DNA of 26,271 bases from a virus (IMGVR_UViG_3300032282_000149:1-26271), one strand, 5' to 3'. Shown: positions 1,268 through 11,706, counted from the first letter of the stretch. Program-made: numbers and translations. The notes: generated by a model not told the origin, from the letters alone.

Positions 1268-1516
1268 TTAAATGTGTTGAGCTTCAACTTGTGCTTGATA
1301 AGCAGCAATAATTTCTGGTGTCCAAGTTAAGTTGCAAATAGCTGCAACATTAGCTGGTTGACCTGTTACATCATCGCCAGGCTGTAAACTAGAACGATGA
1401 TATTTTTTACTAATCTCTACACCATCTTCTTTAATTGTTATTGTTTCACGAACAAGAATAATCCCATTTTCGGTTACTGTAATTTGGTCTACTGCTGTTT
1501 CTTTAGTTAATGCCAT
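1268..1516 (-). CDS. Small conserved phage protein, 82 residues, possible fibre partner
   Basis: The protein starts MALTKETAVDQITVTENGI and contains KEDGVEISKKYHRSSLQPGDD followed by a short helical tail (TWTPEIIAAYQAQVEAQ). Similar small proteins with the KEDGxEISxxYHRxxxxPGDD core are common beside tail genes in aquatic phages; their function is not established. Its place directly after a long fibre gene (1564-2310) is the same as that of the small chaperone-like proteins elsewhere in this array, so it may help fold or attach that fibre. The start ATG at 1516 follows an A-rich leader with AAAAAGAAAA as the only ribosome-binding candidate. The stop lies nine bases before the ATG of the 174-residue gene. 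Confidence 0.75.
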   Translation of the reverse strand: MALTKETAVDQITVTENGIILVRETITIKEDGVEISKKYHRSSLQPGDDVTGQPANVAAICNLTWTPEIIAAYQAQVEAQHI

Positions 1517-2333: not shown

Positions 2334-2340
2334 TATTTAT
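2334..2340 (-). promoter_or_regulatory. Putative late promoter core ATAAATA (unit: 248-residue fibre to left edge)
   Basis: ATAAATA on the minus strand overlaps the TAA stop of the S74 spike gene and lies 23 bases upstream of ATG 2310. It matches the core of the T4 late promoter TATAAATA and the NATAAATA form reported for T4-like cyanophages. The intervening sequence holds AAAGAGAAAC as ribosome-binding site. Confidence 0.65.
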
Positions 2341-3407
2341 TTAGCTTTTAAAGCAGCAATTTCCACTGCCTGAGCATCAACAATTTCTTTAAGTTCTTTA
2401 ATAGCATTTACCAACAATGGAATCATATCTTGATATTGTAAACCTAATTTTCCATTTGGATCAGTTGTAATAGCTTCAGGTAAAACTTCTTGAACATCCT
2501 GTGCAATTAAAAATGCTCTACGAGTTTCTTCTTCATCAGATTTAAATTTACCAATAACAGTTCTTAATCCTACCACTTTATTGAGACCATCTGTAATTGG
2601 TTCAATAATATCTTTTAATGTTTCATCGGAAGAAGATGAAAAACTTGTGGAACCGTAACCCATATAAACGCCAGCATCAGCTGCATTATAGATAATCATA
2701 TATGGATTAGCATCAGCAGTTGCACCAATTTTCCAATATCTACCTGCGGTATTTTGTGCATTTCTAACAATCAACTGTGGCGAATTTCCGGCGGCAGTAT
2801 TGTTTACAAAAGAATGGCAAGAAGTTACTAACGGCGAAGTTACACCTACCAACAAATTACCGTTAGCATCAATACGCATCCGTTCTGTGCCGCTATTGTT
2901 TGTGTAAAACACGACATTATTTGTAGCGGCTACCATTGCATCTGCTGATGTATCGCCTAAAAATGTTCCTGATACACCATAATGTGCAAGAGTTGTTCCA
3001 TTTTGTTGTGCCCTTACTACTCCACCTCTAGTTGTAGCATTAATAGCAACAATACTAGAAACTGAATCTGTAACAGTTAATTTATTTGTAGGGCTAGTAG
3101 TACCAATACCAACATCTCCACCAGAAGTAACTCTAACCGCTTCAACGCCAGCAGTATGAACTCTTACTGTATTGGCAGTTGCAGTATTGAAACCTGTTGT
3201 GCCAGTAGAATCAAAATTTAAATTGGAAGAAACAGTTGCATTTACAATCGTAGAGTTGCCAAATGTGCCGTCACTACCAATAATTTTACCACCAGTATTA
3301 CTGTAAATACCAGAAGCGTTAATAGTAGCAACTCGTGTGTTGCTGACATTCATCTGAAGAAATGAACTTTCAGTTTGTATTGTATCTGCTATAATTTTAC
3401 CAGCCAT
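2337..3407 (-). CDS. Tail spike/fibre with C-terminal S74 self-cleaving intramolecular chaperone, 356 residues
   Basis: Residues 1-40 are the MAGKIIADTIQTESSFLQMN leader. Residues 95-110 hold GGDVGIGTTSPTNKLTV, and residues 165-190 hold a TERMRIDANGNLLVG repeat, both typical of trimeric beta-helical phage spikes. From about residue 256 the sequence is a peptidase S74 chaperone domain: SSSSDETLKDIIEPI carries the expected Ser260 and Lys265 catalytic pair (SDxxLK), followed by FLIAQDVQEVLPEAI and a terminal helix (IPLLVNAIKELKEIV). In this family the domain trimerises the spike and then cuts itself off N-terminal to the serine; here that would release about 97 residues. The homing endonuclease gene lies immediately upstream with two bases between its stop and this ATG. 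The stop codon overlaps the promoter of the next unit. Confidence 0.93.
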   Translation of the reverse strand: MAGKIIADTIQTESSFLQMNVSNTRVATINASGIYSNTGGKIIGSDGTFGNSTIVNATVSSNLNFDSTGTTGFNTATANTVRVHTAGVEAVRVTSGGDVGIGTTSPTNKLTVTDSVSSIVAINATTRGGVVRAQQNGTTLAHYGVSGTFLGDTSADAMVAATNNVVFYTNNSGTERMRIDANGNLLVGVTSPLVTSCHSFVNNTAAGNSPQLIVRNAQNTAGRYWKIGATADANPYMIIYNAADAGVYMGYGSTSFSSSSDETLKDIIEPITDGLNKVVGLRTVIGKFKSDEEETRRAFLIAQDVQEVLPEAITTDPNGKLGLQYQDMIPLLVNAIKELKEIVDAQAVEIAALKAK

Positions 3408-3409
3408 TA

Positions 3410-4054
3410 TTATGCCTTGTTTTGTTCTATAAATTTCTGTTTAGCTATCTCAGCTTCTTCTAAGCTAACATAATAACCAACATGGTGCCTTTTACCATTC
3501 ACATATGCTCTTGCTCTGAAATTTTTAATTCCGGTGCATTTATCAAAATGCCAGCGCTTCATACTTGTTTCGCCACCAGTCAGACTACAATTTGGACAAG
3601 TTACTTTCTTATATATGTAACCAGTCATAGCTAAAGTTCTTTTAGCTATACTTTCAGCTGTTTGTTTAACACCAGTCAATCTCTTTTTCATTGCTGCAAT
3701 TTGCTCTGGTGTTCTTTTGATGCCTTTTGCTCCAAAAGTTCCTTCACCACCATTTGTATTATTGGTCAAAATACCTGAACCGTCATTTCTTCTGCCGTAT
3801 TTAGCAATAAATTCTTGTTCTACTAAAAATGCCAATTCTTCATCAACATTGTCAATAATTTTACTAACTATTGGTTCTTTTCCTTCAGATAATAATTTAC
3901 GAACAACACGAACATTATATGAATTTAATTTTCTACCAGCTTTAGCATCCAAAAGATGGTGGTTGATTCTTTTGTTTGTACCTTTACCAACATAGAACGG
4001 AGTTCCATCAGGATAACTGTAAGTATAAACATAGAATCGGTTTTCAGAATTCAT
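3410..4054 (-). CDS. Free-standing GIY-YIG homing endonuclease with zinc finger and AP2-like DNA-binding tail
   Basis: This is a DNA-cutting mobile gene rather than a virion protein. Residues 8-25 (YVYTYSYPDGTPFYVGKG) are the GIY-YIG signature, followed by Arg29 in the NKRINHH segment, Glu79 and Glu81 in LVEQEFIAKYG, and LTNNTNGGEG near residue 97, as expected for the catalytic core. Residues 107-145 (GAKGIKRTPEQIAAMKKR and a second similar helix) resemble NUMOD3 DNA-binding repeats. Cys153, Cys156, His169 and Cys173 form a likely zinc finger. Residues 179-212 (FRARAYVNGKRHHVGYY, then a LEEAEIA helix) look like an AP2-type DNA-binding domain. Its ATG overlaps the upstream stop as TAATG, and its stop is two bases from the S74 spike gene, so it is read with the fibre genes. 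It probably spreads by cutting phages that lack it. Confidence 0.92.
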   Translation of the reverse strand: MNSENRFYVYTYSYPDGTPFYVGKGTNKRINHHLLDAKAGRKLNSYNVRVVRKLLSEGKEPIVSKIIDNVDEELAFLVEQEFIAKYGRRNDGSGILTNNTNGGEGTFGAKGIKRTPEQIAAMKKRLTGVKQTAESIAKRTLAMTGYIYKKVTCPNCSLTGGETSMKRWHFDKCTGIKNFRARAYVNGKRHHVGYYVSLEEAEIAKQKFIEQNKA

Positions 4055-4507: not shown

Positions 4508-4546
4508 TCTTTTATTTATCTCTTATTCGTCAGCAGGTTCTGGAGT
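4508..4546 (-). repeat. 39-bp perfect direct repeat, copy A
   Basis: The 39 bases are identical to 5916-5954 at a constant offset of 1408 bases. They cover the last codons of the 51-residue gene (encoding TPEPADE), its TAA stop and the promoter core that follows. Similarity continues imperfectly beyond 4546 into the codons for the WVAxGN motif, but stops sharply at 4507. Confidence 0.9.
4513..4519 (-). promoter_or_regulatory. Putative late promoter core GATAAATA (unit: 140-residue protein, homing endonuclease, S74 spike)
   Basis: ATAAATA preceded by G lies directly after the stop of the 51-residue gene and 36 bases upstream of the GTG start at 4476. It is part of the 39-bp repeat shared with 5916-5954, so this promoter was probably copied together with the end of the small gene. 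Confidence 0.65.
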
Positions 4547-4678
4547 GTTGCCAGCAGCAACCCATGCTAAAAACTCAGGGTTATTTTCTGTGCACGTTAC
4601 TCGGCATAAATTATCATCATCAATTCTTGCGTAAATTTTAATGCCATCTTCATTTGTATTTAATAATTTATAAATCAT
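4523..4678 (-). CDS. Small acidic protein of 51 residues ending GNTPEPADE, likely fibre-assembly partner (copy 2)
   Basis: ATG at 4678 overlaps the stop of the 411-residue fibre gene as ATGA, and the frame closes at TAA 4525-4523. The translation starts MIYKLLNTNEDGIKIYARID, then has CRVTCTENNPEFLAWVAAG and ends NTPEPADE. It parallels the 49-residue protein at 5931-6080: both start with (M)YKLL, and both end with a (F/Y)[15 protein letters not shown] tail. The tail motif is common at the C-termini of phage tail-fibre assembly and accessory proteins. Each copy directly follows one of two paralogous long fibre genes, so a dedicated chaperone or tip-attachment role is likely. Short length keeps some doubt, but the overlap, conserved tail and paired context support a real gene. 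Confidence 0.75.
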   Translation of the reverse strand: MIYKLLNTNEDGIKIYARIDDDNLCRVTCTENNPEFLAWVAAGNTPEPADE

Positions 4679-5910
4679 AATTCTGCACTCCAGCCTAGAT
4701 AAGCATTTGTATTAACCGCCCTAAAACCACAACCTTGACCAGCAGTTAATCCTGATGCAGTAGGTAAATTTGTCCCAACCATTTGTGATGTGCCACCCTG
4801 AAACGCAGGAACAGATGAACAAACAACAGCCCCTGCTGCTACTCTTACTGTGTAATCTGATGCAGTCCCTGATTGTTCTAATGCAGTAGGATTTGTTCTC
4901 ATTTGAACTGGTAACTGTGTATAAACAGTTGCATTGGTAGTTGCGGTGCAAAATCCATTTCCTGAATCAGCAGTAGCAACAGGAACAGTTCTATAATAAT
5001 ACCGTTGACATAACATTAGTTCTTTACCATAAGGACGGAATTCAAAAGGTGTTGCCTGTGAACCTTTTTCCAATTGGACACCAGTGAGATACCAAGTAGC
5101 ACCAGAAGTACCAACTACTGATGTTGCACCTGTAGCTGAAGTATAATTATTTAAAGACCAAGACCCAGCAGTTCCAACTAATGTAGAACCTGCACCCATA
5201 CTAAAGTTAACATATGTACCAACACCATTAGTTGAACCCCAAGTTCCACTTGTTGGACCAGCAATAGTAATTACTTTTTGTTCCCAAGTATCGGCAGCAA
5301 CAATTGTGTAACTGAATGGGTATGAATAAGCAGTTCCAACATTTCTTAATGAACCACCAAAAGTACCAGTTAATGAAGAACGAACCCAAAATGATAATGT
5401 AACTGTTTTAGCTGAAGCGGTACCCCAAGCTAAATCAGCAATATTAGAACCTTCAATTACTTGTGCAACATTGTATTGTTCGGCAGAACCTACTGTGTAA
5501 GCAGAAGAAGAAACAACCTTTAATGAATTGGCAAAACCAGCAACTGTATTTGCTGAAGAATCTCGTTGAACGGTAAATTTTGAATCAACTGAACCAAAAG
5601 CATACCATCTATCAAGTGTATATGGCGCTGAAGTTGTTGCAGTAACACTAGCACCATTACTCCGTTGGTCAATTGCCATAGAACCATTAATGATTTTATT
5701 ACGGATACCAAATGATGTGCCTTGAGAACCCATATAATTCTCAACAGAACCTGTTTGAAATACTGTGTTGCTTAATGTATTACTAGCAATCTGTGTTGAA
5801 GTAATTGCACCATTAGCAATCAGATTAGCACTGATTGAGTATTGAACAAGGTCAGCCGCAATAATGGTATTATTAGCGATTGATTGCGTGTTTATTCTTG
5901 ATAAAGGCAT
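4675..5910 (-). CDS. Tail fibre protein with sugar-binding-like module and variable tip, 411 residues (copy 2)
   Basis: Residues 1-50 (MPLSRINTQSIANNTIIAAD ...) form a fibre attachment/shaft start. Residues 52-305 hold a module widespread in phage fibres: [83 protein letters not shown], and PYGKELMLCQRYY. It looks like a carbohydrate-binding beta-sandwich. The 410-residue protein at 6083-7315 matches closely across this module, but residues 307-411 differ almost completely between the two, apart from a similar last few residues (WSAEL versus FSSEL). This pattern suggests an exchangeable receptor-binding tip. A promoter core lies only 10 bases before the ATG. The 51-residue partner follows by ATGA overlap. 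Confidence 0.87.
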   Translation of the reverse strand: MPLSRINTQSIANNTIIAADLVQYSISANLIANGAITSTQIASNTLSNTVFQTGSVENYMGSQGTSFGIRNKIINGSMAIDQRSNGASVTATTSAPYTLDRWYAFGSVDSKFTVQRDSSANTVAGFANSLKVVSSSAYTVGSAEQYNVAQVIEGSNIADLAWGTASAKTVTLSFWVRSSLTGTFGGSLRNVGTAYSYPFSYTIVAADTWEQKVITIAGPTSGTWGSTNGVGTYVNFSMGAGSTLVGTAGSWSLNNYTSATGATSVVGTSGATWYLTGVQLEKGSQATPFEFRPYGKELMLCQRYYYRTVPVATADSGNGFCTATTNATVYTQLPVQMRTNPTALEQSGTASDYTVRVAAGAVVCSSVPAFQGGTSQMVGTNLPTASGLTAGQGCGFRAVNTNAYLGWSAEL

Positions 5911-5915
5911 AGTAG

Positions 5916-5954
5916 TCTTTTATTTATCTCTTATTCGTCAGCAGGTTCTGGAGT
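5916..5954 (-). repeat. 39-bp perfect direct repeat, copy B
   Basis: This is the partner of 4508-4546. It covers the end of the 49-residue gene, its stop and the promoter of the 411-residue fibre gene. Two such copies flank the 411+51 cassette and could allow its loss or gain by homologous recombination. Confidence 0.9.
5921..5927 (-). promoter_or_regulatory. Putative late promoter core GATAAATA (unit: 411-residue fibre and 51-residue partner)
   Basis: ATAAATA lies between the stop of the 49-residue gene and ATG 5910. Only 10 bases separate it from the ATG, so a transcript starting at the usual T4 late distance would have a leader of just a few bases. It belongs to the same 39-bp repeat as the element at 4513-4519. 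Confidence 0.6.
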
Positions 5955-6080
5955 ATTACCTTCAGCAACCCACTTGAGGTATTCTTGGTAATCGGTGTTG
6001 TCAGGGTCGAATGGAATAACTGCACCATCAAAAACTCTACGCACTTGATTAGAATTAGATTCTTTTAATAATTTATACAT
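5931..6080 (-). CDS. Small acidic protein of 49 residues ending GNTPEPADE, likely fibre-assembly partner (copy 1)
   Basis: ATG at 6080 lies two bases after the stop of the 410-residue fibre gene, and GGAG in the end of that gene acts as a ribosome-binding site. The translation is [19 protein letters not shown], then [20 protein letters not shown], ending [10 protein letters not shown], with TAA at 5933-5931. It shares its start and its tail with the 51-residue protein at 4523-4678, including a run of identical DNA over the last codons. The motif IPFDPxNxDYQxYLxWVAEG is typical of small phage tail-assembly proteins. A dedicated folding or attachment role for the preceding fibre is inferred from position. 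Confidence 0.78.
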
Positions 6081-6082
6081 TT

Positions 6083-7315
6083 TTATAGCTCCGAACTAAA
6101 ATTTACCCAGCTTGCACTTTGATATATTAAAGGTGCCCAACCAACAGTTAATCCACTCCAGCCTGTTACATTTAAAGATGCAGCATCTTTTTGAATATTA
6201 CTACCTGCAATATAAGAACCCGAACTTGTAAATGCACCCGAACTGGCTCTATCAACAGTAATAGTTCCACTTGGCACAGAAGCAGTAGGTGCGGCTCGCA
6301 TTGTTACTTTATAAGGAACGCTAAATGACATAGAAGCTGCTTCATAAACAACACCTATACCACCACTAATTGATTGATAATAACGTTGGCACAATGTTAA
6401 TTCAATACCATATTGGCGATATTCAAAAGGAGTTGGAACAGAACCTTCTTCAAATTGGACACCAGTAATATACCAAGTAGCACCGTTTGTGCCGACTACT
6501 GATACTGCACCTGTAGCCGAATCAAATCCACTACCACTTGCCCATGCACCTGGAGTTCCACTATATGTGGTACCAACACCTAAGCCAAACTCAACAATTA
6601 TACCAATGCCGTTTGTTGTTAACCAAGTTCCTGATGTGTCACCTGGAATAGTTACAAATTTCTGTTCCCAAGTATTAGCTGCAGAAATAGTATATGTATA
6701 TGGATAACTTCTTGCATAACTTGAGTTAGATATAGCACCACCAAATGTTCCTGTCAATGAAGAACGAACCCAAAATGATAGTGTAACTGATTTAGCTGAA
6801 GCAGTTCCAAATCCTAAATCAGCAATATTATTTCCTTCAATTCTTTGAGCAATAGAAAAATAATCTCCAGAACCAACTGAGTATGATGATAAAGAAGTAA
6901 CCTTTAATGAACTAGTAAAACCAGCTACAGTATTTGCTGAAGAATCTTGTTGAACTGTATATTTTGAGGATTGTGAAGCAGTAGCTTGCCATCTATCTAG
7001 TGTATATAAAGTTGTTGTAACTGTATTAGCTGCTCCAGAATTTCGCTGGTCAATCCTCATGGCACCATTGATAATTCTGTTTCGCATACCAAAATCTAAT
7101 GTATTGGCTCTCATGTAGTTCTCAACAGAACCGGTCTGAAATTGATTATTTGCTACTGAGTTTGCAGTAAGACTAATTGCTGTGTTTGAAGCCGCAACAA
7201 TAACACCAGAACCATCCACTTGAAATGATGGAATAGTATTAGCGGATCCAAATGTATTGGATGTAATATTATTAGTTACTGCGATGACAGCAGGAACAAC
7301 CTTAGTAATTGCCAC
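6083..7315 (-). CDS. Tail fibre protein with sugar-binding-like module and variable tip, 410 residues (copy 1), GTG start
   Basis: The start is GTG at 7315 ([20 protein letters not shown]), preceded by AGAGAG. The N-terminal ~55 residues ([17 protein letters not shown]) are a fibre leader unlike that of copy 2. Residues 59-312 are the shared module: [109 protein letters not shown]. The remaining ~100 residues are a different tip from that of the 411-residue protein. It is the first gene of a unit with promoter core ATAAATA at 7340-7346, followed by its 49-residue partner. It probably binds a surface sugar on the host; the specificity cannot be read from sequence. Confidence 0.87.
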
Positions 7316-7339: not shown

Positions 7340-7346
7340 TATTTAT
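7340..7346 (-). promoter_or_regulatory. Putative late promoter core AATAAATA (unit: 410-residue fibre and 49-residue partner)
   Basis: The element contains the TAA stop of the 58-residue XkdW-like gene and stands 24 bases before the GTG start at 7315, with AGAGAG between as a ribosome-binding site. Confidence 0.65.
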
Positions 7347-7519
7347 TCTGTAACTGCATCCAACTGAGCTTGAGTTGGTTGTGTTAATGTTGGGTGAGTC
7401 CAAGACTTGATGTAGTCACCATTGCCATCATTTTGGAGAAGAATTGTTCCTTCATCAATATCAAAATCACGCACAGTCAATTGTGGATATAATGTTAAAA
7501 TTTTATTGTATAAACTCAT
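7343..7519 (-). CDS. XkdW-like small protein, 58 residues, likely fibre chaperone (copy 2)
   Basis: The chosen start is ATG 7519, which forms an ATGA overlap with the stop of the preceding C1q-like gene; an in-frame ATG eight codons upstream would add residues unlike the paralogue. The protein begins MSLYNKILTLYPQLTVRDFD, then has GTILLQNDGNGDYIKSW and ends THPTLTQPTQAQLDAVTE. It aligns along its whole length with the 60-residue protein at 8843-9025 and with the XkdW family first named from the Bacillus PBSX tail region. The family's function is not established. The repeated head-plus-XkdW arrangement suggests a dedicated assembly partner. Its TAA stop is embedded in the ATAAATA element that drives the next unit. 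Confidence 0.85.
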   Translation of the reverse strand: MSLYNKILTLYPQLTVRDFDIDEGTILLQNDGNGDYIKSWTHPTLTQPTQAQLDAVTE

Positions 7520-8043
7520 GCTGACCTCGCCAAAAATCCACAAAAATATGTTCCTGAACTTGTTGCATATATATACTTACTAATTCCACTTTCTTGCCTT
7601 ACATATATTTCAAAATAATCAGTTGTTCCATTTGCATATAATAACGCTGACACAAATCTTGATGGATATGTAGATGCTGGTCCATTTAAATTTTCTTCTC
7701 TATAAACTGCAGCAGAACCATTTTTATAAATCCAAGTTTGTGCTCTGCCACTAGTTTGATAATCTGATTGGCCAGCAAAAGTTAATTGATAATATCCGGC
7801 TACAGTAGGTGTAAAAGTTCCTGTTGAAGTATTAAAACAACTAGCGGTATCGTAATTTTCTGCTGTAAAAGTTAATTTTGTTGTAGTAGAAGTTGCTATT
7901 GAGGCATCTGATGTATAATAAGCATAAAACGCTGGCGCCAATGTAGATGCTAATTGAAATCCAATGTTTGCTCCACTGGAATTAAGATTAGCCATAATAA
8001 CGCCATTGGCCGTTTGTATTTGATTGACTTTTATAACTGACAT
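7516..8043 (-). CDS. C1q-like tail fibre head protein, 175 residues (copy 2)
   Basis: After a short leader (MSVIKVNQIQTANGVIMANL) the protein has a jelly-roll domain of C1q/TNF type: PAFYAYYTSDASIATSTTTK, TASCFNTSTGTFTPTVAGYY, WIYKNGSAAVYREE, LLYANGTTDYFEIYVRQ, and YFCGFLARSA at the end. The 190-residue protein at 9025-9597 has the same motifs in the same order. C1q-like domains form trimers and occur at the tips of phage fibres, so this is probably a trimeric receptor-binding head. The MSVIKVNQIQTANGV leader is a common fibre N-terminus. The XkdW-like partner follows with an ATGA overlap. Confidence 0.85.
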   Translation of the reverse strand: MSVIKVNQIQTANGVIMANLNSSGANIGFQLASTLAPAFYAYYTSDASIATSTTTKLTFTAENYDTASCFNTSTGTFTPTVAGYYQLTFAGQSDYQTSGRAQTWIYKNGSAAVYREENLNGPASTYPSRFVSALLYANGTTDYFEIYVRQESGISKYIYATSSGTYFCGFLARSA

Positions 8044-8046
8044 AGT

Positions 8047-8328
8047 TTACTCTGGTTTTGGATATTTAGTCTTAACGGCCTGGCAGGCTGCAATATAGGC
8101 ATCAATTTGTTCTTGGTCACCTTTCACTACACCATCAATATAATCTAGTAAGCTTGGATATTCTGCTTGACGCTTGGCAATATATGCGTGGTTGTTGATG
8201 TATGTCTGAACAGCTTCAACATCATAAGATACTTCGTTGCCGCTAGCATCATAGGCAATATCATCAATAAATTTGACAATTTGAGGATAAAGTTTAAAAA
8301 TAATATCTATTTGTTTTGTAGTAATCAT
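8047..8328 (-). CDS. Small phage tail protein of 93 residues ending VKTKYPKPE, likely assembly partner
   Basis: ATG 8328 overlaps the stop of the 172-residue fibre gene as ATGA. The sequence runs MITTKQIDIIFKLYPQIVKF, then YIAKRQAEYPSLLDYIDGVV, and ends AACQAVKTKYPKPE. The RxxEYPxxxDxxDxxxKG core followed by VKxKYPKP is a very widespread small phage protein found beside tail fibre genes, sometimes called a tail-assembly chaperone; a biochemical role has not been shown to my knowledge. The segment DDIAYDASGNEVSYDVEAVQ shows an insertion-type N-terminal half. Its position after a fibre gene mirrors the XkdW-like and PEPADE proteins in the same array. Confidence 0.83.
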   Translation of the reverse strand: MITTKQIDIIFKLYPQIVKFIDDIAYDASGNEVSYDVEAVQTYINNHAYIAKRQAEYPSLLDYIDGVVKGDQEQIDAYIAACQAVKTKYPKPE

Positions 8329-8843
8329 GCTGCTATCTCCATCAAAACAATTGATGATGCAGAAGAATCATCTTGAAATACAAGAGAACCAGAATTACCC
8401 ATTTGTCCTTGAACTTTATAAGTGATTGAAGATGTGGTTGCCGGAGAATCAAGAATAGTAACAGATGGAGCTACAGCTTGTTCTCTACTACCACTCGCAG
8501 CATCTACACTTATATAATTGTAATAAGCTCCGTAATTTCCAGGATTTCTGTAAATAGAAGTTGCATCTCTCAATACTTGAAGCGACATTCCAACATTGTT
8601 TTGAGAATTTGATACATTCTGATACATCTGCAATGTAACCAAAACTAATATTTTGCTAGTAGAAAATCTAGGTGTGATTGATGCAGTTACACCTGTATCT
8701 TGCCAACTGCTAGGGCTTGAAAAAGCAGTTCTAGTTGTATAAGTTTGATTGACCGTTTGAATTACACTACCTGTTGGCAAAGATGAAAGTCCACCTACTG
8801 CGGCTAATCCTGTGATTGATGAACTATTAAGGACTAAAGGCAT
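8325..8843 (-). CDS. Tail fibre-like protein, 172 residues, with ITPxxxxSKILV domain
   Basis: The leader MPLVLNSSSITGLAAVGGLS is followed by LPTGSVIQTVNQTY, SWQDTGVTASITPRFSTSKI, LVLVTLQMYQNV, LQVLRDATSIYRNPG and the ending SSASSIVLMEIAA. This is a well-represented phage fibre domain in which GSVIQ, W.DTG, ITPxxxxSKILV and the terminal SSIxLMEIA are conserved. It is probably a beta-sandwich head, similar in overall plan to the C1q-like proteins around it but with no clear sequence identity to them. Its ATG overlaps the stop of the XkdW-like gene upstream as TAATG, and its stop overlaps the 93-residue partner as ATGA. Confidence 0.84.
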   Translation of the reverse strand: MPLVLNSSSITGLAAVGGLSSLPTGSVIQTVNQTYTTRTAFSSPSSWQDTGVTASITPRFSTSKILVLVTLQMYQNVSNSQNNVGMSLQVLRDATSIYRNPGNYGAYYNYISVDAASGSREQAVAPSVTILDSPATTSSITYKVQGQMGNSGSLVFQDDSSASSIVLMEIAA

Positions 8844-9025
8844 TATTCTGTTACTCCGTCTAATTGCTCTTGTGTTGGTCTAGTTAAAGTAGGGTGTTCC
8901 CATTTGGCAATATAATCGCCTTTGCCATCTGAATCGTTTTGGAGGCGAATAGTTCCAGTTATTGGAGAAAAATCTTCTAAAGATAATTCGGAATAAATTG
9001 ATTTGATTTTATCGTATAATGTCAT
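8843..9025 (-). CDS. XkdW-like small protein, 60 residues, likely fibre chaperone (copy 1)
   Basis: The start ATG at 9025 overlaps the stop of the C1q-like gene in TAATG. The sequence MTLYDKIKSIYSELSLEDFS, then GTIRLQNDSDGKGDYIAKW and EHPTLTRPTQEQLDGVTE is a close match to the XkdW family pattern (LYxKIxxxYPxL, IxLQNDxDGxGxYIxxWxHPTLxxPTxEQL). The 58-residue protein at 7343-7519 is a paralogue. The N-terminal helix, acidic loop and proline-containing C-terminal segment resemble other small fibre-assembly proteins. Each XkdW-like gene directly follows a C1q-like head gene, which is the best evidence for a functional pair. Confidence 0.87.
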   Translation of the reverse strand: MTLYDKIKSIYSELSLEDFSPITGTIRLQNDSDGKGDYIAKWEHPTLTRPTQEQLDGVTE

Positions 9026-9597
9026 TATGCAGCCCTTATCAATATACCTTGAAAGAAATTATTTGATGAACCAGTATTTAATACTTTATTAACACCAGCT
9101 GCATGATACCAAGATATATTAACATAATCAGAAGTTCCATTTAAATATACAAGTGATGATGTGGATTGTAACCATATATAGCTTGCTGCCATATCATTTC
9201 CATAAGCATAATCGGATCCATTTTTTAATATTGAAACGATTGTTTCGGCAGAAATAGCACCTGACCAATAAACTTGTGCATTAATCCAATAATAACCAGC
9301 AACATTAGGTGCAAATGAATAAGCAGGTACAGAAATACCATTTAATGTTACAGTTGATCCAGTATTATTAAAACAAGTTGCAGTATCATTTACTTTAGTT
9401 TGGTATTGAATTTTTGTTCCAGTACCTGTTGCAATTGTTTGTTGTGAACTTTGATATGCAATAAACGCCGGCATATTGCCACTAACCATTACAGTACCAG
9501 TTGCTGCTGGGAATGTTGCAGTTAAATCTGAAGCACCATCAGCGCTTACTAATGCTAATGAACCGCCAGCAGGATTTTTTAATTTTAAATTTGCCAT
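9025..9597 (-). CDS. C1q-like tail fibre head protein, 190 residues (copy 1)
   Basis: An in-frame ATG at 9612 exists, but ATG 9597 is preferred: it overlaps the upstream stop as TAATG and gives the common leader MANLKLKNPAGGSLALVSAD, followed by ATFPAATGTVMVSG. The C1q-like domain follows: PAFIAYQSSQQTIATGTGTK, DTATCFNNTG, YSFAPNVAGYYWINAQVYWS, SILKNGSDYAYGND, YLNGTSDYVNISW, and NFFQGILIRAA. The domain matches that of the 175-residue protein at 7516-8043, while the leaders are unrelated, so heads and attachment leaders have been exchanged. A trimeric receptor-binding tip is the likely role. The XkdW-like partner follows immediately. Confidence 0.86.
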   Translation of the reverse strand: MANLKLKNPAGGSLALVSADGASDLTATFPAATGTVMVSGNMPAFIAYQSSQQTIATGTGTKIQYQTKVNDTATCFNNTGSTVTLNGISVPAYSFAPNVAGYYWINAQVYWSGAISAETIVSILKNGSDYAYGNDMAASYIWLQSTSSLVYLNGTSDYVNISWYHAAGVNKVLNTGSSNNFFQGILIRAA

Positions 9598-9836: not shown

Positions 9837-10790
9837 TTAGTTGATGGAGAATAAGTTTGCTGTATTAGCAGTAAATGTTCCATCACCTGTGAATGTATGA
9901 ATGGTAAATCCAGAGTTAGAAGTTACTGTCCCGCCTGTAGCAGATTGTCCACCATAGTAGCGAACAATAACAATACCTGAACCGCCGGCACCTGATGTGG
10001 ATGGAGAATCACTTCCGCCACCGCCACCGCCACCACCAGTATTAGTTGTTCCATTTACACCAGCTGTACCACTTCTTATTCCGCCTTTGCCACCACCGCC
10101 TAATCCGCCAGCACCACCATCACCGTTTGGACCTAATGAATTAGAACCTCCGCCACCTCCACCAGCATATGATGTAACTGAACCAGTAATTGCAGAAGCA
10201 ATTCCGTTTCCGCCTTGGCCAGCGTAACCAGTATTATATCCACCCTCTACACCAGATATACCAGCGGCTCCTGCGCCGCCGCCGCCGCCACCGGATTCTT
10301 GGCCATTACCAGCAAAAGTGCTTCCGTTTCCGCCATTATTTCCTTGACCAGGAGTTCCTGAAGATCCAGGCGCAGCTGCTGGACCAGGTGAATATCTTGC
10401 GCCGCCACCAGAACCACCAACTGTGCTACCAGGTGCACTTGGGCCACCGCCGCCAGCACCACCACGATAAGCTGTTACTGAAGCAAATACACTATTAGAA
10501 CCTTCTGAACCTGAAGAATTTGTTCCAGTTCCAACTCCGTTTCCGCCACCGCCAACTGTTACTGTGTAAGGAGTGCCAGCAGTAATTGAAAGTGTTCCAG
10601 TTTGAAAACCTCCAGCACCTCCGCCGCCGCCGCCACCTTGAGTATTACCACCTCCACCACCGCCAGCAACTACAACATACTCAACTGAAGTTAATGTGTT
10701 TGCACCAGCAAATGAATTTAATCCAATAGGATATGGAAAACCGGATGGTCTAAATGTTTGTAAAGAAAATTGTTTTGTATTATCACCCAT
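9837..10790 (-). CDS. Glycine-rich tail adhesin, 317 residues (copy 2)
   Basis: Residues 1-35 (MGDNTKQFSLQTFRPSGFPY ... NSFAGANTL) are the attachment part. Residue 35 begins SVEYVVVAGGGGGG, the start of a Gly_rich_2-type region. Residues 43-270 contain about a dozen glycine runs broken by short variable loops, which in related phage adhesins would pack as polyglycine helices with exposed loops. The C-terminus has SGIVIVRYYGG (271-281), GGTVT and TIHTFTGDGTFTANTANLF, nearly identical to the 304-residue paralogue upstream. Glycine-rich adhesins bind host outer-membrane proteins or sugars in T-even phages. There is one base between the upstream stop and this ATG. The long antisense frames here are only the reverse reading of the glycine codons. 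Confidence 0.87.
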   Translation of the reverse strand: MGDNTKQFSLQTFRPSGFPYPIGLNSFAGANTLTSVEYVVVAGGGGGGNTQGGGGGGGAGGFQTGTLSITAGTPYTVTVGGGGNGVGTGTNSSGSEGSNSVFASVTAYRGGAGGGGPSAPGSTVGGSGGGARYSPGPAAAPGSSGTPGQGNNGGNGSTFAGNGQESGGGGGGAGAAGISGVEGGYNTGYAGQGGNGIASAITGSVTSYAGGGGGGSNSLGPNGDGGAGGLGGGGKGGIRSGTAGVNGTTNTGGGGGGGGSDSPSTSGAGGSGIVIVRYYGGQSATGGTVTSNSGFTIHTFTGDGTFTANTANLFSIN

Positions 10791-10791
10791 A

Positions 10792-11706
10792 TCAATTTAC
10801 CATGTAATTAGCTGCGTTAGATGTAAATGTTCCATCGCCTGTAAATGTATGTATGGTGTATCCACCAGAACTTGTAACTGTGCCACCGCCAGCGGCTTGA
10901 GATCCAAGATAACGAATGATTACGATACCAGAACCTCCGCTGCCGCCGTTACCACCGTTTGGTGCTGGTGCGTTAGCACCTCCGCCACCGCCACCGCCAT
11001 TTCCTGTATTAGCTGGGCCGGATGTTCCTGTGCCACTACCTGCATAACTTCCGCCGGCGCCACCAGCTGCATATGTTGCTGGACTTCCTGAATATGGACT
11101 TGCAGTTCCTGATCCTGCGGATCCGCCTGCGCCGCCAGAGGGGCCAGGAGAACCGTTTCCGCCTGCACCACCTTTACCACCACCACCACCACCACCGCCA
11201 CCTTGTGGAGAAGCACCGCCATTTCCGCCTATATTTCCTTGAGCTGGGTGACAACCTCCACCATAACCAGTTGCGGGGCCACCGTTACTTCCGCCGCCGC
11301 CAGATCCAGAAGCACCCATCATTGAGCCTGGATTTATTGTAGCGATACCATGTTGATAACTACCAGAACCACCACCACCGCCAATTGCAGTAATAGTAAA
11401 GAAACTTGATGTTGACCCTTGGCCAGAATTTGGACTAGAAGGACTACCAGCTGAACCGGCTGGAGCTCCGCCGCCAACAGTAACAGCATATGATGCTCCT
11501 TGGCGAATAGCTAAACCTGTACCTGTTAAAAGTCCACCAGCACCTCCACCAGCACCGCCACGAGCAGCTGGTGCACCACCTGATCCGTTACCAGCGCCGC
11601 CAACAACCAAATAATCTACTGAAGTTGGTCCGCCAGTTGCAGCTGAATTATTGAGAGCTACAGGGTAATCGTAATTTTGAGGACGACCTACTCTACGAAT
11701 ACTCAT
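10792..11706 (-). CDS. Glycine-rich tail adhesin, 304 residues (copy 1)
   Basis: The start ATG at 11706 overlaps the upstream stop in TAATG. Residues 1-30 (MSIRRVGRPQNYDYPVALNN ...) precede SVDYLVVGGAGNGSGG and a long glycine-rich region (38-260) with runs of up to nine glycines. The C-terminus carries SGIVIIRYLGSQ, GGTVTSSGGYTIHTFTGDGT and FTSNAANYMVN, as in the 317-residue paralogue next door. Loop sequences between glycine runs differ between the two, while the N- and C-terminal frames are conserved, as expected if loops set receptor specificity. It follows a 112-residue gene, the same order as at the left edge of the window. Confidence 0.87.
   Translation of the reverse strand: MSIRRVGRPQNYDYPVALNNSAATGGPTSVDYLVVGGAGNGSGGAPAARGGAGGGAGGLLTGTGLAIRQGASYAVTVGGGAPAGSAGSPSSPNSGQGSTSSFFTITAIGGGGGSGSYQHGIATINPGSMMGASGSGGGGSNGGPATGYGGGCHPAQGNIGGNGGASPQGGGGGGGGGKGGAGGNGSPGPSGGAGGSAGSGTASPYSGSPATYAAGGAGGSYAGSGTGTSGPANTGNGGGGGGGANAPAPNGGNGGSGGSGIVIIRYLGSQAAGGGTVTSSGGYTIHTFTGDGTFTSNAANYMVN

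Follow-up and report, generated by a model that had tools for sequence, protein, structure and literature searches.

XkdW-like small proteins as probable chaperones of C1q-like fibre heads in a class-matched array of viral gene cassettes

The window, by which the whole analysed stretch of 26,271 bases is meant, is a virus record of IMG/VR with gp6-like and gp8-like T4-type baseplate genes at its right. Leftward of these genes, small tail genes lie in a long run on the minus strand. The gene calls in the window are mechanical open reading frames, and no near DNA relatives of the window were found in the phage records. Six genes were considered in particular, all on the minus strand. C1q-like head protein 1 (9025-9597, 190 aa) consists of a leader (residues 1-41, 9475-9597) and a C1q-like domain (9025-9474). 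It is followed by XkdW-like protein 1 (8843-9025, 60 aa), with a TAATG overlap of the two genes at 9025. Next are a class B head of 172 aa (8325-8843) and, joined to it by an ATGA overlap, a small protein of 93 aa (8047-8328). C1q-like head protein 2 (7516-8043, 175 aa) has its leader at 7936-8043 and its C1q domain (residues 38-171) at about 7531-7932; XkdW-like protein 2 (7343-7519, 58 aa) overlaps it by ATGA (7516-7519). Positions, strand and junctions of both heads and both XkdW-like proteins agree with those given by an earlier, sequence-only reading of this DNA.

The C-terminal ~150 residues of heads 1 and 2 are homologous (BLASTP E 3e-16, 34% identity), and their leaders are unrelated with 13% identity. 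Thus, the two proteins are one C1q-like domain on differing leaders, as had been proposed. Head 2 exceeds the Pfam cut-off for C1q (PF00386, 8.7e-7, 29.6 vs 23.7 bits). For head 1 no Pfam match of its own was obtained; it is assigned to C1q by its homology to head 2 and belongs to the cluster of C1q heads found upstream of XkdW. In the syntenic contigs L013 and L014 the leaders are 94% and 90% identical to those of the window, but the heads just 39% and 41%; the values for head 1 are 94% and 39%. When L016 is included, identity between contigs is 87-94% for the leaders and 34-41% for the C1q heads behind them. Near-identical leaders with divergent heads indicate head exchange behind a fixed leader, and the leader is a putative swappable attachment part. 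Co-duplication of head and XkdW had been suggested for the window, but as a recent event in place it could not be maintained. Heads 1 and 2 are 39% identical, whereas head 2 shares 79% identity with the head of another phage (L088), whose leader differs. A recent tandem duplication was rejected, as neither window pair has its nearest relative in the other.

XkdW-like proteins 1 and 2 are paralogues with 60% identity (E 4e-25), in agreement with the first description. Scanned minus its first four residues, protein 2 passes the Pfam cut-off of PF09636 (1.6e-7; 31.4 vs 24.6 bits); protein 1 lies half a bit below it (24.1 bits). The family profile A1 matches XkdW of the Bacillus subtilis element PBSX (2HG7) at 4e-6. 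The predicted structure of protein 1 (AF2, single chain, pLDDT 89.8) was aligned to 2HG7 over 51 residues (VIA; Z 5.6, rmsd 2.0), the sole PDB match listed; the fibre chaperones TfaMu and Pam3 gp25 were not among the matches listed. By profile and model, the window proteins share the fold of the N-terminal half of 2HG7. With 58-60 aa, compared with 110 aa for PBSX XkdW, they stop after this first domain, which is also all that the Pfam model of PF09636 spans. The C-terminal region of PBSX XkdW (residues ~53-110) is absent, and no match to DUF4376 (PF14301) was detected in the window XkdW proteins by Pfam scan.

The pair in the middle had been regarded as unrelated to its neighbours. By sequence this is correct, since no similarity of the class B head to the C1q heads was found. 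The heads of classes A, B and C were likewise ruled out as sequence relatives. With regard to architecture the description does not hold. The predicted structure of the class B head (AF2, single chain; pLDDT 83.8, pTM 0.79) matched the PLTL TNF-like lectin 9ib7 and Pgp3 6gjt with Z 12.8 and C1q domains with Z 9.0-9.7 (VIA), so that a TNF/C1q-like jelly roll is predicted. The small protein of 93 aa belongs to phrog_9114 (1.5e-11), and the N-terminal part of this family also matches XkdW-like protein 2 weakly. Full-length XkdW of pelagiphages consists of the XkdW domain and, behind it, the module with which the proteins of the 93-aa family end; hhalign of this full-length form with class B gave 97%. 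When the N-domain of class B is compared with the short XkdW domain, the first helix alone aligns. Among the class B relatives, one lies near the Phage_tail_APC family. The jelly-roll fold and the module on full-length XkdW suggest that the middle pair is a cassette of the same kind and no unrelated insertion.

From 9597 to 7343, three cassettes of one architecture lie in succession, and two further cassettes come next on the same strand. A class C head of 410 aa with GTG start (6083-7315) is followed by a motif-bearing small protein of 49 aa (5931-6080; phrog_20370, 8.9e-15), and a second class C head of 411 aa (4675-5910) by one of 51 aa (4523-4678; phrog_20370, 0.0058, with a match to the class C profile). 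Both heads are members of the class C head cluster. No relationship of the class C and class D small proteins to XkdW was found. The best explanation of the locus is an array of receptor-binding cassettes that can be exchanged, and in each of them a small fibre protein of conserved leader and variable head is followed by a tiny partner. A fourth kind of head and small protein (248 and 82 aa) is located at 1564-2310 and 1268-1516 (minus strand). Its small protein belongs to phrog_6228; of 14 distinct cases of this kind, 11 (+2) have a head cluster of their own.

The linkage of small proteins and heads was investigated in IMG/VR. A search with XkdW-like protein 1 gave at least 583 relatives, the best 80 of which were kept; hence, for the most distant members the linkage is judged from the samples of bacteria and pelagiphages. 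In the best-80 set together with a few phage records, 83 of the 85 distinct upstream neighbours fell into one C1q-like cluster, and TAATG was the most frequent junction of head and XkdW. A reverse survey with head 2 as query showed XkdW behind many, though not all, C1q heads. Further loci were fetched with the 93-aa and 49-aa proteins. A C1q head precedes 139 of 142 distinct XkdW genes. Of 162 distinct small genes of the 49-aa class (class C), 160 are found behind their own head class; for the 93-aa class this holds in about 80 of 105 cases. For an independent test, models were trained on one locus set and tested on loci from other queries. All 17 XkdW genes in loci fetched without XkdW or C1q lie behind a C1q head (p=1.4e-32). 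In independent loci, class B heads precede 34 of 37 genes of the 93-aa class (p=6e-59), class C heads precede 76 of 77 genes of the 49-aa class (p=5e-136), and cross-pairs among the three classes were not observed. The best explanation is that the partner family is fixed by the head class: XkdW-like proteins for C1q heads, the 93-aa family for the second jelly roll and the 49/51-aa family for the heads of ~410 aa.

In the order to which a Paenibacillus hit belongs, 45 of 298 genomes were found to contain PF09636; in a sample from the phylum of this hit, it was detected in 4 of 398 genomes. These bacterial genomes, the marine alphaproteobacterial contig L305 and the PBSX-like phage PBP180 provided 32 genes upstream of XkdW, and 30 of them end in a C1q head of the IMG/VR type (each E<1e-6 with the IMG/VR head model). 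In PBP180, too, XkdW comes after a C1q-ended fibre, as in the window. Pfam's C1q model detects just 10 of these bacterial and PBSX-like heads; their profile matches that of the IMG/VR heads in hhalign with 99.7% and 1e-26. Two upstream genes, both with XkdW proteins from Paenibacillus, have a Gp53-like_C tip at the end. In the survey proposed by the sequence-only reading, XkdW-like genes were thus tied to C1q-like heads well above chance, in relatives of the window as well as in Bacillota prophages. Occurrence beside genes with no link to fibre heads, which would have spoken against the proposal, was not the pattern found: exceptions are few, and the commonest (the 2 of 32) is itself a fibre tip.

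On the downstream side, PF09636 was present in all 35 scanned proteins. Eleven of them, bacterial or PBSX-like, also carry DUF4376, and in these proteins XkdW sits in the N-terminal slot. Others of the bacterial and PBSX-like XkdW proteins have, by eye, long predicted helices at the end. In three Paenibacillus loci (L306, 2677-3483, plus strand; L307; L326) an N-terminal extension, the XkdW domain and DUF4376 are combined in one protein behind a Gp53-like_C tip.

C1q heads with no XkdW directly behind them amount to 12 of 29, 54 of 181 and 50 of 167 head genes in three test sets. Therefore, the C1q fold does not always need XkdW. None of five IMG/VR fibres of at least 450 aa has XkdW directly behind it. 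When the head tree was labelled by presence and absence of XkdW, 25 changes were counted for 172 heads. XkdW directly follows one of eight C1q heads ending in RAV and none of seven ending in VSV (L058, L066, L082, L090, L100 and others), and several of these heads have an XkdW gene at most 1.5 kb downstream. A natural in-frame fusion of C1q head and XkdW was not found in the loci surveyed. In pelagiphage HTVC115P (L004, 3778-4333) a class C-like small gene adjoins a gene for full-length XkdW, and C1q heads are found elsewhere in the locus. This is a break in the usual order of head and then partner.

It was further examined how closely each XkdW protein fits its own head. In 137 pairs, heads share 34% identity on average and XkdW proteins 60%. 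Co-divergence is weak but significant (Mantel r=0.19, p=0.005; 0.16 controlling for the leader). Inter-protein mutual information is higher in true than in shuffled pairs (z=9.4), an excess that lineage could cause; the pairs of residues with top signals, which could be lineage effects as well, combine XkdW 45-54 with a residue near the head C-terminus. Residue-level co-tailoring of XkdW to its head was rejected as weak at best. The co-divergence would be expected if each XkdW recognised its own head only and the pairs had been duplicated together in the window phage. Against this, heads with 75-84% identity on different leaders have XkdW proteins of 55-68% identity, and 60% is the average of random pairs. 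One head pair with 98% identity has XkdW proteins of 85% identity. As, in addition, each window pair has closer relatives than the other pair, strict one-to-one recognition is considered most improbable. XkdW fits a head class and not an individual head. The specificity for the C1q-like head suggested in the beginning is supported at the level of the class, where no cross-pairs occur, but not for the single head.

Fibre chaperones encoded behind the fibre gene are well known. XkdW shares two of their features, the location directly behind a fibre gene and a matched client class. Since it occurs almost exclusively with C1q-like heads, in the window and in Bacillota prophages, it is most likely a mini-chaperone folding or capping such heads. 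Known systems provide comparable cases. To make an active tail fibre, the Alteromonas phage V22 requires gp27, which carries DUF4376 at its C-terminus (PMC10579305, PMC7289586). Like XkdW, V22 gp27 and A5 gp9 are encoded directly behind the fibre, and DUF4376 is the domain found in 11 of 35 bacterial and PBSX-like XkdW proteins. In contrast, the window proteins do not have it. In Pam3 gp25 a non-conserved N-domain binds the TNF-like part of the fibre and a conserved C-domain trimerises (PMC9608196). For gp25 and TfaMu the client is a TNF-like jelly roll and the trimerising C-domain is helical (PMC9608196); the client of XkdW has a TNF-family fold, too. The N-domain of Pam3 gp25, however, is a beta-sandwich, for which no match to XkdW was found by sequence or among the fold matches listed. 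In Bacillus phage Sam46 the plaques are altered when the C-terminal helix of an XkdW-like protein carries point mutations, and a role in tail assembly was suggested by the authors (PMC8190038).

We consider it probable that the XkdW-like protein is an intermolecular chaperone for C1q heads within a class-matched cassette array. The folding partner of the sequence-only reading is therefore kept as the best reading. The TAATG or ATGA overlap would couple translation of XkdW to that of the head. During synthesis, the domain of helix and beta-hairpin would dock on a feature that all C1q heads share, help three of them to fold and trimerise, and then depart or cap them transiently. The longer relatives would be chaperones of two domains, with XkdW at the N-terminus for recognition of the fibre and a C-terminal part (DUF4376, the shared helical module or a coiled coil) for trimerisation. 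Of these two domains, the window proteins would retain the docking one only and are best read as stripped, N-domain-only chaperones of fibre heads. Lack of the trimerising C-domain used by known two-domain chaperones counts against a chaperone role; short fibres may need less help. The stronger conservation of XkdW than of the heads (60% and 34%) fits a generic helper of a variable client. Chances are about evenly balanced for a more general code, in which each head fold class has its own tiny generic docking chaperone, so that members of a class are swappable, and the version in aquatic phages is the docking domain alone (~55 aa) with no trimerising part.

The linkage data also fit XkdW as a permanent part of the virion, a tip protein or adaptor that caps or joins the C1q trimer in the manner of TfaMu on the Mu fibre. 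SCOP places XkdW-like under the fold number d.186 of the head-tail joining protein gpW (PMC5671483), and the XkdW versions of the window are without a trimerising domain, both of which agree with a structural role. We regard this role as unlikely in view of the DUF4376 fusions and of Pam3, whose chaperone was not detected in virions by mass spectrometry (PMC9608196). Moreover, strong conservation beside hypervariable heads is less expected of an exposed tip. Head exchange behind conserved leaders and the much better conservation of XkdW would also be obtained if the small gene served as a homology anchor in a recombination cassette and had no contact with the head. But a pure anchor would have no need to correspond to the fold class of its head, and cross-pairs among the three classes are missing. 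The link also persists across unrelated phages and bacterial phyla, where no shared anchor is possible. The signal of true over re-shuffled pairs, which may include lineage effects, is likewise not expected of an anchor. A pure recombination cassette is thus hardly probable.

If the chaperone reading with its class code is right, it explains the free exchange of hypervariable heads in aquatic phages, as the helper recognises the fold class, and provides a rule for picking the correct partner when such heads are expressed. PF09636 is a family with solved structure and no known function. The C1q link, found in marine and freshwater phages as well as in Bacillota prophages, names its client and the DUF4376 fusion its likely job, which makes the function of XkdW testable in B. 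subtilis 168. In metaviromic islands of marine phages, the most variable genes include 10 for C1q heads and 4 for XkdW, the latter listed as unknown (PMC3909814); the accessible part of that study counts both and draws no connection between them. No literature linking XkdW to C1q heads was found within a coverage that leaves out most subscription papers. Thus, the pairing by class, the C1q head as client and the form reduced to the N-domain appear to be new, although this is not certain.

Other genes of the window are related to the fibres. A fibre protein of 356 aa (2337-3407, minus strand) ends in Peptidase_S74, an intramolecular chaperone (PF13884, 2e-8), so that this phage has a built-in chaperone alongside separate ones. 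Between tail fibre genes, an open reading frame of 214 aa (3410-4054, minus strand) is, by eye, a candidate homing endonuclease of the GIY-YIG type. Two adjoining genes at 9837-10790 and 10792-11706 (minus strand) encode glycine-rich domain proteins (PF21722), which are possibly adhesins.
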